Assembly: GCA_018699155.1 (NCBI GenBank)
Contig: JABIQA010000098.1
Coordinates: forward strand, 1 to 64,000
Source of the DNA: Chromatiales bacterium
GTDB lineage: Bacteria > Pseudomonadota > Gammaproteobacteria > Steroidobacterales > GCA-2729495
Length of the DNA stretch: 64,000 nt
Reading direction: 5' to 3'
In this document: piece by piece, positions 9,314 to 24,279 of the stretch
Layout: each line of letters opens with the position of its first letter
Position numbering within the stretch: the stretch's first letter is position 1
Made by a program: the position numbers and the translations under genes
Notes under the pieces: model-generated
The model's input: only the letters and a program-made list of their open reading frames with translations
Told to the model about the DNA's origin: nothing
Databases searched by the model: none

Positions 9314-9419
9314 AACAAACGCTTACTAAATTATTACCGCAGTAATTCTGCTGCGATGGGAGTTTATTCAGGTTCGTGAGTTTACCTGTGGTCACTCCCA
9401 TTTTCTTGTAAACCGCCTG

Positions 9420-16213: not shown

Positions 16214-17167
16214 ATGTCGGATAAAAGCATTTCTATAGATCGCCGCAACTTATTGGCAGGCATCGGCGCTGCGGGCGCGCTGGGCATGGCGCCAGCATTG
16301 CAGGCGCAAACTGGCTTAAAGGTCGTCGAGCGGACGCTGGACCTAGATGATCCCAAAGACAATCTTCGTGCCTTGCTGAAACTTCAGGCCGACCTTTCTG
16401 GCAAAGATGTCTTGTCGGGCTTTCCCGGCAAGGTATGGGGCTGGGTGCCGGGCAAGGGTAATACTTTGCTGTTTAACACCTATGGCATTGGCTGCAGCCA
16501 TATTGAAGAAGTGGCAGAGGGTTACCGTTTTTATCATCGTGAATTGCTGTACTACACCGACCCGAAAACTAATGAGGTTCTCGATAGCTGGGAAAATCCA
16601 TACACTGGCAAAACTGTCGAAGTTCGCCATATTATTAACGACCCAGTTAATCGCTTTTATCCGTTTGCCGGTGGTCGTTTTTCACCGCCGTACCCGTATG
16701 AAGTTTACGGTAACGATATAGTGTTTCAGATTAGTGTATTTCGTTTTGAAGAGTCGCCGATGAGCCGTGCTGATTACCCATTGCATTCTGCTGATGATAA
16801 CTATCAGTCGGCGGAGTTATGGGGAATGATTGGACGCATGGAAGAGGTTATGGACCCCGCGGTTACCTCAGCCAGTTGTGTGACCTCGTGGTCACGTATT
16901 TCACAGTGGCTGCCCTTCATGGAAATGGGTGATGCGCCCGGTATTATGGCGTTCCATAGCCATGCGTATAAGTTGATGAACGGTGCCTCTGAGTTGCCAC
17001 CGGAGATTCTTGCGTACACCCAGAAGAACTACCCAGAGTACCTTGAGTCTCCCAAAGAGTGGCTGGGCATGAAAGATAACAAGAGCCAGGTAACGGAAAG
17101 CAAGAAAGAGATTGATCGTCGTTGGACTCAGGAAGGTCCGGCCGGCTCGGTATTTATAGCCGACTAG
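16214..17167 (+). CDS. DUF1838 family protein with Tat signal
   Basis: A 317-residue protein with a twin-arginine signal (IDRRNLLAGIGAAGALGM, cleavage after LQAQ). The rest matches my memory of DUF1838: a first block with KVWGWVPGKG, then LFNTYGIGCSHIEE, YYTDPKTNEVLDSWENPYTG and VRHIINDPVNRFYP, and in the second half SCVTSWSRISQWLPFMEMG and MAFHSHAYKLMNG. DUF1838 has no assigned function that I know; Tat export suggests it folds in the cytoplasm, perhaps with a cofactor. It ends before a strong terminator. Confidence 0.8.
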   Translation: MSDKSISIDRRNLLAGIGAAGALGMAPALQAQTGLKVVERTLDLDDPKDNLRALLKLQADLSGKDVLSGFPGKVWGWVPGKGNTLLFNTYGIGCSHIEEVAEGYRFYHRELLYYTDPKTNEVLDSWENPYTGKTVEVRHIINDPVNRFYPFAGGRFSPPYPYEVYGNDIVFQISVFRFEESPMSRADYPLHSADDNYQSAELWGMIGRMEEVMDPAVTSASCVTSWSRISQWLPFMEMGDAPGIMAFHSHAYKLMNGASELPPEILAYTQKNYPEYLESPKEWLGMKDNKSQVTESKKEIDRRWTQEGPAGSVFIAD

Positions 17168-21082: not shown

Positions 21083-22402
21083 ATGAGCGGTAACCAGTCA
21101 GTGGGTATCAAATTTGGGCCGTGGTGGCTATCGCCCGGTATCCTGCGACGGCATGTTGTGGTGATGTTCATGGTGAACTGGATATCGATGATGCTGGTGC
21201 CGTTCATCAACTTTATCCAGCCGTTGGTGTTTCAGGGCATAGAAGTGCCTCCTGATCAGCAAGGGACATTAACCGCCAACCTCGGTCTGCTCAGCGATGT
21301 CATTGCGTTGGGTGTAATGGTTATTATCGGCGCGGTCAGTGATCGTACCGGCCGTCGCGTTATCGTAATGGTCGGGTTTTTCTTGCTGATTGTTGGTCTT
21401 GGCCTGTATCCGCGTGCTGAAGGCATTACCCAGCTTTATTTATTTCGCGGCATCGTTGGTCTGGGCATGGGGGTCATTTCTACCTCTATGCTGACCGTGA
21501 TTCAGGATTACCCACAGGACCGTTCACGCGGAAAGTACACCGGCATGAACAGTGTGTTCAGCGGGCTTGGTGTGATGGTGATGGCCGTAGGCATTATGCG
21601 GTTGCCCGAAATGTTTGTTGAAGGTGGAGCCACACAGAACGCGGCTGTTATAAATACCTTCATGATCTGCGTGGGTATCGGCATTTTTGCAGCATTACTT
21701 GCACGCTTCGGCTTGTCAGGTGCTTTGCCTGACCCTGATCATCGTACTGAAAGTGTATTCGGTGGTGTAAGCGATGCTGTAGCTGAAGCTAGAAAAAACC
21801 CTCGCTTGTTGTTGTCTTTTATTGCAGCATTTGCGGCGCGCGGAGATCTTGCTGTTGCAGGAACCTATTTCGCACTTTGGTTTATGTATATAGGTACTGC
21901 TCAGGGTATCGATAGCATCGAAGTAGCGAAAATCAGCGGCCAGTATTTTGGCCTGCTTAATCTGTCCATCATGGTGTGGGCACCGATCTATGGGATCATT
22001 ATTGATAGGGTCAATCGCGTTACTGCCGTTACGCTAGGGCTCGCAACAGCATCTGCCGGCTACTTCCTTATGGGCAGTATCGATAACCCGTTTAATCCCG
22101 CTATCATTATTCCCGCCTGTATTCTTCTGGGCATGGGTGAAACCAGCGCTGTGGTGAGTTGTGGCTCGTTGGTGGGTCAGGAAGCGCCACCCCGTATCCG
22201 AGGCTCTGTCATAGGGTTTTATGCCCTCTGCGGCAGCTTCGGCATATTGTCGCTTAGCTTTATTTCTGGTCTCATATTCGATGCGTTTTCGCCCAATGCG
22301 CCGTTTATTTTTATGGGTGCCGTTAATCTGGTTATCGTTGTTATTGCACTGTATGTTCGTGTGCGCTACGGAAACCCCACAAACCCCTCAGCCACCTCGT
22401 AA
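21083..22402 (+). CDS. Major facilitator superfamily transporter
   Basis: A 439-residue, roughly 12-helix MFS permease. The loop 2-3 signature is visible as GAVSDRTGRRVIV, and GLGMGVISTSMLTVIQDYPQDRSRGKYTGMNS fits helices 4-5 of the sugar/drug-type fold. The second-half counterpart GIIIDRVNRVTAV is present. The substrate is unknown. It is followed 19 bases later by two tandem genes with strong ribosome sites, so transporter and paralogues probably form one operon controlled by the palindrome at 21043. The final residues are hydrophilic with a Pro/Ser tail. Confidence 0.88.
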   Translation: MSGNQSVGIKFGPWWLSPGILRRHVVVMFMVNWISMMLVPFINFIQPLVFQGIEVPPDQQGTLTANLGLLSDVIALGVMVIIGAVSDRTGRRVIVMVGFFLLIVGLGLYPRAEGITQLYLFRGIVGLGMGVISTSMLTVIQDYPQDRSRGKYTGMNSVFSGLGVMVMAVGIMRLPEMFVEGGATQNAAVINTFMICVGIGIFAALLARFGLSGALPDPDHRTESVFGGVSDAVAEARKNPRLLLSFIAAFAARGDLAVAGTYFALWFMYIGTAQGIDSIEVAKISGQYFGLLNLSIMVWAPIYGIIIDRVNRVTAVTLGLATASAGYFLMGSIDNPFNPAIIIPACILLGMGETSAVVSCGSLVGQEAPPRIRGSVIGFYALCGSFGILSLSFISGLIFDAFSPNAPFIFMGAVNLVIVVIALYVRVRYGNPTNPSATS

Positions 22403-22421
22403 TCTTTTTCAGGAGTTAGCT

Positions 22422-23150
22422 ATGTCAGCAGAAACCGGTGAACTATTTGCCCGTAAGGATACGATGTTTGAAACGGACGAAAAGAAAAATGCATTCATGA
22501 ATGCATGGCTGGCGTACAAGGAGCTTACTGATGCGCAGGACAAAGAGTTCGCTGCCAAGGAAGCCGAAATTGGCTACGCTGTGGCGAAACTGGTAGCTGA
22601 AATGCTGGGCAAAGATACGCCGATGATCGAAGGGCGTGAGGCCGAGTTTGGCCGGGTTTTAGGCAATAGCTTTCGTACCTTTCAAACGCTCGTGCCGTAT
22701 CATCACCAGGGCAATGATGGGCTTATAAAAGAGCAGCTCAAATGGTATGAATTTGCCATGCGGGAAGGCCTGGTTGAGAAAATTATTGAGCACGATGTTG
22801 AATCGATGCGGAATATTCTGGGCGAGCGTGGTGGCTGGGCCGCCAGTACCGGTCGTCTGGAGCTTGCTCTTGATGCGCTTACCACACCGACCTGTTTCCG
22901 TGATCTTGTTCTGGGTGAAGGCTTTAAGCTCACCCCCACCCGACTGGAATACAAATCTCCCTATGGGCGCGTGATTGCCAAGGGGCATCAGCGTGGTATC
23001 TGGACAAATCTCACCGAAGAGCGCATTCACAATATTTGGACAATTCCTCGGTACAAAGGCTACGCCGAAATTATGGGTGTGCATTTTGAGGTGTCACCAT
23101 GGGATGAAGAAACCCGAATGATTTCGGTAGATGTTTCTGCTTTGAGTTAG
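22422..23150 (+). CDS. Uncharacterised soluble protein, first of a tandem paralogous pair
   Basis: A 242-residue protein without signal peptide or membrane segments. I do not recognise the family. Start ATG 22422 has AGGAG 6 bases upstream. It shares long blocks with the next gene: GREAEFGRVLGN, then RTFQ, PYHHQGND, KEQLKW, LALDALTTPTCFRDL, SPYGR, RGIWTNLTEERIH and PWDEETR. Conserved His, Cys, Asp and Glu in these blocks (HHQGND, TPTCFRD, PWDEETR) could be catalytic or metal ligands. The N-terminal 70 residues look helical. Its place behind an MFS transporter suggests an enzyme acting on an imported compound, but that is inference only. Confidence 0.8.
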   Translation: MSAETGELFARKDTMFETDEKKNAFMNAWLAYKELTDAQDKEFAAKEAEIGYAVAKLVAEMLGKDTPMIEGREAEFGRVLGNSFRTFQTLVPYHHQGNDGLIKEQLKWYEFAMREGLVEKIIEHDVESMRNILGERGGWAASTGRLELALDALTTPTCFRDLVLGEGFKLTPTRLEYKSPYGRVIAKGHQRGIWTNLTEERIHNIWTIPRYKGYAEIMGVHFEVSPWDEETRMISVDVSALS

Positions 23151-23174
23151 ACAAAACTATTTAGGAGATCACTT

Positions 23175-23927
23175 ATGGATGCTGCACAAGAGATGAAAGG
23201 CGAGCTTAAGGCTCGAATGAAGGACACAATGACGGAGGCGCAGATCGCCCGTGCCGACGCCATTATGAAGGGTTGGTTTGCATTCAATGATTATGCGCTG
23301 TTGATTGAACATCAATGTACCGAACATGCGGAAGCGATCGGCCGTAAGGCGGCAGATATGATTGCTGCTGAAATTGGTCAGTCACGAGATCTTATCGATG
23401 GCAGAGATGCGGAGTTCGGGCGCATATTGGGCAACACGATTAGGACCTTTCAGATGACTTTGCCGTATCAGCATCAGGGCAACGATGCGCTCATGAAAGA
23501 GCAGCTTAAGTGGATGGATTATGCGCAGCAGTTAGGTCGTACTGCCGAGATGGTGCAGTTTGATGTTAACTCGATGAAAGAGATTTTCGAAGAGCGTCGC
23601 TACTGGATTGAGGAGACCGGTGATGTCAGCCTGGCTCTTGATGCCGTTACAACGCCGACCTGTTTCCGTGACCTTACTGTAGCTGATGGCATAGAGTTCA
23701 ATGCTGACCGCACCGAGATCTCATATCTTTCACCCTATAAGCGGATTCTTGAGAAAGGCTGGTTGCGAAATATTTGGACGGGTTTGACTGAGCAGCATAT
23801 TCATGAACAGTGGACACTTCCGCGTTTCGCCGGCTATCAGGAACACTTTCAGGTGCGCTTCGAAGTTGACCCGTGGGATGAGACAACTCGCTTGGTGCGG
23901 ATTCGGGTGATGCCTGCAGTCGAGTAA
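23175..23927 (+). CDS. Uncharacterised soluble protein, second of a tandem paralogous pair
   Basis: A 250-residue paralogue of the preceding protein, by eye about 40-45 percent identical over most of the length. It keeps the blocks GRDAEFGRILGN, PYQHQGND, KEQLKW, LALDAVTTPTCFRDL, SPYKR, RNIWTGLTEQHIH and PWDETTR. Its N-terminus is longer and different (MDAAQEMKGELKARM). Ribosome site AGGAG lies 9 bases upstream of ATG 23175, and only 24 bases separate it from the first gene. Retention of both copies with the same conserved residues suggests a heteromer or two related substrates rather than a decaying duplicate. No function assigned. Confidence 0.8.
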   Translation: MDAAQEMKGELKARMKDTMTEAQIARADAIMKGWFAFNDYALLIEHQCTEHAEAIGRKAADMIAAEIGQSRDLIDGRDAEFGRILGNTIRTFQMTLPYQHQGNDALMKEQLKWMDYAQQLGRTAEMVQFDVNSMKEIFEERRYWIEETGDVSLALDAVTTPTCFRDLTVADGIEFNADRTEISYLSPYKRILEKGWLRNIWTGLTEQHIHEQWTLPRFAGYQEHFQVRFEVDPWDETTRLVRIRVMPAVE

Positions 23928-24015: not shown

Positions 24016-24279
24016 ATGAGGATGAGTGAATTGGCAGTAATGGTCCAGGCCTTGAAGGATGAGGTTGAATCACAGGTGGTATTTGATCAGGCCGCCGCTG
24101 ATTCTGTTCGCGCTCGTGTGCGGGAGCTGGCCGAGCGGGTTGAGAAAATGAGCGGTGCGCACGATGAGCCCATGACTGATCAGCTCACCCGTATTGCCGC
24201 AGAGTTTGAAGCTGAGCACCCAAAGACCGCGCGCTTATTGGAGCGTATGGCCGATACTTTATCGAAACTGGGCGTTTAG
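24016..24279 (+). CDS. DUF4404 family protein
   Basis: An 87-residue, strongly helical, charged protein. The C-terminal stretch FEAEHPKTARLLERMADTLSKLGV is the recognisable DUF4404 ending, and the N-terminal half is a heptad-like helix. AAGGAG lies 9 bases before ATG 24016. Function unknown for the family. Its stop overlaps the end of the convergent hydrolase gene by 4 bases, leaving no room for a terminator. Confidence 0.8.
   Translation: MRMSELAVMVQALKDEVESQVVFDQAAADSVRARVRELAERVEKMSGAHDEPMTDQLTRIAAEFEAEHPKTARLLERMADTLSKLGV

Follow-up and report, generated by a model that had tools for sequence, protein, structure and literature searches.

A tandem pair from an unnamed protein family behind an MFS transporter gene in a gammaproteobacterium

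The described systems with which the two proteins considered here are best compared are the TRAPP, V4R and H-NOX groups of ligand-binding proteins and one family of hydrolases. V4R proteins are thought to hold or sense a ligand and to pass the compound, or a signal, on; the H-NOX proteins, which are in the same ligand-binding fold group as TRAPP and V4R, carry a heme motif, Tyr-x-Ser-x-Arg. The hydrolase family, ATC_hydrolase (PF14196; L-2-amino-thiazoline-4-carboxylic acid hydrolase), was also considered, its members being soluble proteins of similar size and with a similar order of elements. One report places TRAPP and V4R in one ligand-binding fold group and describes, for Bet3/V4R, glycine pairs with three residues between them in helices 2 and 5 (PMC2253512).

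The locus analysed here, in a window of 64,000 nucleotides (i.e. the whole stretch of DNA analysed), comprises an MFS transporter gene followed by two related genes, A and B. Judged from sequence, the family to which A and B belong is a genuine unnamed protein family, with members of about 200-250 residues. In our best reading, A and B would be cytosolic enzymes or ligand-binding proteins working with the MFS transporter.

The gene pair and the search for a known family

The MFS transporter gene (21083-22402, forward strand), the first of a putative operon, matches MFS_1 (PF07690; E 1.6e-38) with 132.9 bits against a cut-off of 33.4. It ends 19 bp before gene A, which runs on the same strand from an ATG at 22422 to a stop at 23150 and encodes a soluble protein of 242 residues; after a further 24 bp, gene B (250 residues, likewise soluble and on the forward strand) runs from an ATG at 23175 to a stop at 23927. 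Both ATGs are preceded, at normal spacing, by an AGGAG ribosome site (22407-22421 and 23160-23174, forward strand, read by eye). The first-pass annotation had described two adjacent genes of these lengths and positions, with strong ribosome sites and behind a transporter, and the ORF check and the features just given agree with it on each point. A longer frame for A is listed from 22221 (309 residues), whose added part shares sequence with the MFS gene but is read in a different frame; the start at 22422 is adopted because the ribosome site is there. From their real starts, neither A nor B has an evident signal peptide. Promoter- and terminator-like sites at the operon number 4 and 4, compared with 5.3 and 3.9 in shuffled sequences, i.e. 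there is no excess. A DUF4404 gene (24016-24279, forward strand; PF14357, E 5.1e-12) lies 88 bp downstream of B and may or may not be co-transcribed with the pair; among the compared loci it recurs only in L025, which is of the same genus, and it was not found beside relatives in other genera.

A and B resemble one another to a degree far above chance (47% identity, 63% positives, 226 bits and E 4e-79 in a single BLASTP comparison), and the four blocks from which their relationship was originally proposed, EFGR(V/I)LGN, PY(H/Q)HQGND, TTPTCFRDL and PWDE(E/T)TR, are all common to both. Comparison with the L003 orthologues gives dN/dS values of 0.027 for A, 0.078 for B and 0.042 for the MFS gene; both A and B are under purifying selection.

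The initial description of the family as unrecognised has held up. With library membership requiring that the curated cut-off be exceeded (Pfam, NCBIfam) or that E be under 0.001, A matches nothing in Pfam at E up to 10, B has two Pfam matches only, both sub-cut-off (best E 0.042), and neither matches NCBIfam or PHROGs. With B as query, phmmer found nothing better than E 1.6 in the PDB, and a search with a 21-member profile gave nothing. Seven divergent members have no Pfam or NCBIfam match above cut-off; when the 21-row alignment was compared with Pfam, the best E was 0.018 and each Pfam family was matched by one member only. Identities as ETF_alpha (E 0.042), TatA or LEU1-type proteins were rejected, these being weak matches below the curated cut-offs. 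A strong match to a well-characterised enzyme family was looked for and none was found, and no literature on the family was apparent in mostly open-access searches, as far as listings and the openings of abstracts extend.

Distribution, copy number and conserved residues

Matches to the family were found in 62 of 296 genomes of the same order (single-protein search), in two of 369 genomes in a class-level draw, both from the window's taxonomic family, and in one of 398 in a phylum-level draw, this being the window's own genome; plasmids (tblastn with B) gave no match and viral contigs (pattern scan) no relative. As sampled, the family is therefore confined to one gammaproteobacterial order. 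Within the window's taxonomic family, 35 of the 40 genomes, with one to seven profile matches each (90 summed over the 40, a few of them fragments), carry a protein family that is missing from the curated libraries searched. The named records nearest to B, at 98% and 94%, are from metagenome-assembled genomes and are labelled uncultured Chromatiales bacterium and Gammaproteobacteria bacterium. One candidate relative, L004 (28%, E 5e-5 in the genome scan), was dropped; it was missed by the family profile and its frame resembles, by eye, a kinase or phosphotransferase.

In an alignment of 65 members (B numbering), Tyr98, His100, Asn103, Cys163 and Pro187 are invariant, His210 is present in 64, and D104 and K108 are present in 62, the members without both (L056, L059 and L069) forming one small clade. 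The counterparts in A are Y93, H95, N98, D99, K103, C158 and H203. The early impression that conserved residues look functional is borne out by this alignment for His, Cys and Asn. By a crude hydropathy rule, 33 of 88 family ORFs have a signal-like N-terminus, a count that includes the false long start of A in the window and in L025; the family appears tied to no single compartment, because about a third of its members are signal-like.

The comparison of loci covers 82, a selection of hits, with 88 family ORFs, of which 80 are from the window's taxonomic family and 8 from four other families of the order. Adjacent tandem pairs are present at five of the 82 loci. The A/B pair occurs in the window, L002 and L025, all of one genus (the latter two being same-genus orthologues), and an independent pair, of two deeply separated members, occurs in another genus in L075 (6268-7695, reverse strand) and L076 (6224-7567, reverse strand). 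Single copies are the rule in the family, with only two independent pairs. The idea that relatives always carry both copies does not survive this count, and nor does a heteromeric A/B enzyme as a general mode; the family needs no A/B partnership, because pairs are rare.

That A and B themselves together form an active complex is, in our estimation, unlikely. The tandem arrangement of two conserved genes, both with low dN/dS, would accord with such a complex, as would the second pair of deeply separated members in another genus. Against it, single copies prevail, and A and B both keep all the conserved residues, so that neither looks like a pure scaffold. In addition, a 13-row tree does not reject A and B as sisters, i.e. 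a lineage-specific duplication (log-likelihood 2.03 lower, p-AU 0.286). In a 65-member tree A, which has a long branch, lies outside a set made up of B and the single-copy relatives, which has 98/92 support.

Transporter, oxygenase and other neighbours

The best NCBIfam matches of the window's MFS protein are to MamH- and MamZ-type transporters, at 189 and 168 bits, which are under the curated cut-offs of 300 and 650, respectively, and no magnetosome genes were seen among the window ORFs, read by eye. There are weaker matches both to multidrug efflux models and to uptake families. With homologues defined by a profile score of at least 400 bits, this MFS type lies no more than 150 bp from 10 of the 88 family ORFs, nine of these pairings being same-strand; the association with a transporter, first remarked on for the window, recurs in several genera. 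Homologues with 35-42% identity adjoin single-copy relatives in L026, L028, L029, L032, L033 and L022. In the first five of these, which are in the A/B clade, the MFS gene (about 40-42% identity) immediately follows the single gene and shares its strand; in the window it is upstream. Seven of the ten A/B-clade loci have the MFS gene, L030 and L031 do not, and in the tenth, L002, the contig starts inside A, so the MFS side was not judged. Outside the A/B clade, the same kind of MFS gene adjoins on the same strand in L058 and L114, and in facing orientation in L022. The window's own genome has eight further matches to its MFS protein, and with a type so common single pairings could be due to chance; the link between MFS and family is argued because the same-strand pairing repeats.

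Proteins of similar appearance, with lipoprotein-like starts and without a Pfam match, are encoded near the MFS and family genes in two genera (L028, 5143-5949, reverse strand; L033, 8249-9055, forward strand). The likeness was judged by eye, and they are possibly another uncatalogued family.

The sequence gives no direction of transport, and, with multidrug efflux models among the weaker matches, the locus might serve for export or detoxification, with the MFS protein expelling a toxic compound which A and B modify or bind. We regard such a unit as distinctly unlikely, given that, in the wider family, those neighbours that have a name look like genes of catabolism and not of resistance.

Among these neighbours are Rieske oxygenase genes, called by a Rieske profile together with a CxH...CxxH motif, less than 500 bp from the family ORF. 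Such a gene adjoins 11 of the 88 ORFs (in L026, L041, L049, L051, L054, L058, L075, L080, L083, L086 and L105), upstream in all 11 and divergent in 10; as listed, the Rieske ORF of L041 runs into the family gene, and starting at the last Met before the motif, at 9316, gives a divergent gap. Rieske-domain matches number 499 in about 109 Mb in the 40 genomes. For the window's taxonomic family, nine of 80 ORFs have an upstream Rieske gene compared with 0.37 expected (Poisson 2.3e-10, or 2.4e-6 when counted by genera, of which there are six), the expectation assuming one gene per kb and relatedness being only partly removed. The four adjacent oxygenases scanned with Pfam (L026, L049, L058 and L086) all have PF00355 plus VanA_C; of six Rieske proteins compared with NCBIfam, none reaches a cut-off. 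These counts were redone by profile and motif because a first clustering, in which the Rieske group covered 15 of 61 loci, included spurious joins; the TonB-receptor count from the same clustering is not evidence. When neighbours within 6.5 kb were clustered in search of a constant one for the exported relatives, none matched the Rieske, MFS and TonB-receptor groups in frequency. A profile search found no Rieske gene in the whole window, and 77 of the 88 members have no adjacent Rieske gene; a role as a Rieske oxygenase subunit was rejected, constant oxygenase company being absent.

Other neighbours include UbiD, luciferase-like monooxygenase, SnoaL-like, DUF1838, flavocytochrome-c-like, isochorismatase-like and HsaA-like proteins, which gives the neighbourhoods the character of a degradation route for aromatic or similar compounds. 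In L083 a gene for an HsaA/hydroxyphenylacetate-hydroxylase-like monooxygenase lies 5 bp downstream of the family gene, with UbiD nearby.

Three further arrangements were observed. In L083 (6275-8536), from another family of the order, the monooxygenase gene is followed by one for a GFA (glutathione-dependent formaldehyde-activating) protein, and a Rieske gene adjoins. The window's genome has another family member on contig C19 (L049, 5633-6286), which is divergent from a Rieske oxygenase gene and is followed by genes for a flavocytochrome-c-like FAD protein and an MFS protein. DUF1838 genes are near family members in different genera, i.e. in the window (16214-17167, separated from the downstream MFS gene by about 4 kb and two genes), L028 (12102-13100, reverse strand) and L086 (5257-6129, reverse strand).

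Tentatively, and at somewhat short of even confidence, we favour the reading that the family protein has a small organic compound as its ligand and probably converts it, because transporter and catabolic company recur and polar residues are invariant. In the window's genus, the duplicated cytosolic A and B, in an operon with the MFS transporter, would act on a small organic compound moved by that transporter; as homomers or together they would bind the compound and change it chemically, the change being made by the conserved Tyr-x-His-x-x-Asn-Asp...Lys, Cys and His residues, and the product would enter pathways that are served, in relatives, by Rieske oxygenases. The compound is probably aromatic or similarly hydrophobic; catalysis, substrate class, transport direction and fold are all things that we infer. 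Points against this reading include the absence of a Rieske gene from the window and of any enzyme family match for A and B, an MFS type that is not rare, given its eight other matches in the same genome, the 77 members without an adjacent Rieske gene, the spread of the family over more than one compartment, and the small clade without D104 and K108, as well as the weak models and profile comparisons described below. Should the family protein be an enzyme, uncultured bacteria would have one more step by which to degrade what are probably aromatic compounds. Its repeated association with one MFS type and with Rieske oxygenases offers a direct way of searching for the substrate.

Predicted structures compared with known folds

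The AlphaFold models of A and B, made with six input sequences, are weak, with mean pLDDT and pTM values of 68.4 and 0.57 for B and 58.8 and 0.61 for A. A designed protein tops the VIA list for both models; TRAPP subunits are the best natural structures for both, with BcsD and H-NOX chains lower, and Z for natural chains is at most 7.1, a level that the tool calls common. The agreement of the two models, of proteins that are 47% identical, on these chains counts towards the favoured reading. Structure prediction, proposed in the first-pass annotation as a check, has thus given a TRAPP/V4R/H-NOX-like resemblance, but no Foldseek match at E 0.001 or better with either model.

Profile-profile comparison, the other check proposed there, gave nothing above 25 controls. 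With hhalign, probabilities were 0.1-0.3% for V4R, within the range of the controls (the V4R profiles being small, with 3 and 4 sequences), and 0.1% or less for ATC_hydrolase (3 members), like the controls. The ATC_hydrolase sequences were drawn from 114 class-level genomes and those for V4R from 94; one ATC match, L092, was dropped as broken by a stop, and all seven V4R matches were used. ATC_hydrolase and, as far as the small profiles allow, V4R were set aside as true relatives, local and global profile comparison giving neither signal nor a meaningful register. The models suggest a TRAPP/V4R/H-NOX-like fold, which is a lead, not a result, because Z values are middling and the profile comparison is null; the structure comparisons leave room for other folds.

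The TRAPP resemblance of both models, together with that of the B model to the PoxR/MopR/DmpR phenol-sensing V4R domains (Z 4.5-4.8), is consistent with A and B being non-catalytic ligand-binding proteins of TRAPP/V4R-like fold, which would retain or detect a hydrophobic compound and hand on either the compound or a signal; the divergent arrangement with Rieske oxygenase genes in 10 loci also fits such a role. We consider it somewhat unlikely, in that the invariant Tyr, His, Asn and Cys and the near-invariant His exceed what a pocket needs, Pfam found no DNA-binding domain in A, B or the divergent members, and neither Pfam nor the small V4R profiles gave a sequence link to V4R. Nor could those relatives that are exported be transcription regulators. 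The favoured reading, binding and probable conversion of a small organic compound, has a more far-reaching form, which we think unlikely to hold as a whole. The family would be a new enzyme class, possibly of TRAPP/V4R/H-NOX fold, in which the invariant Tyr-x-His-x-x-Asn, Cys and His make up an active site for compounds that VanA-type Rieske oxygenases consume or produce, and it would have been duplicated, exported and re-paired with transporters in one gammaproteobacterial lineage.

As regards ATC_hydrolase, neither A nor B has a Pfam match to PF14196 at E up to 10, and the C-terminal CDFRF block of that family, seen in L089-L091, is absent from the A/B family. Several H-NOX chains align with the A model over about residues 46-242 (Z 4.4-4.9); the H-NOX heme motif is absent, position 188, after the invariant Pro187, being Y in 32, F in 27 and W in 6 of the 65 members. 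The glycine pairs of Bet3/V4R, as described in the report cited above, are likewise absent from positions with at least 85% conservation in the 65 members. Among natural structures the B model is closest to TRAPP, matching 2j3w_E in Foldseek (E 0.015, prob 0.95) and 2bjn_B with Z 7.1 and an rmsd of 4.1 over 130 residues. Bet3, of the V4R/TRAPP type, combines a twisted antiparallel sheet of four strands with five helices. Four strands are also predicted at the C-terminus of the B model, besides several helices, and at the pLDDT and Z values given above any likeness to TRAPP/V4R is tentative; it would lie in two strand pairs placed around two C-terminal helices.
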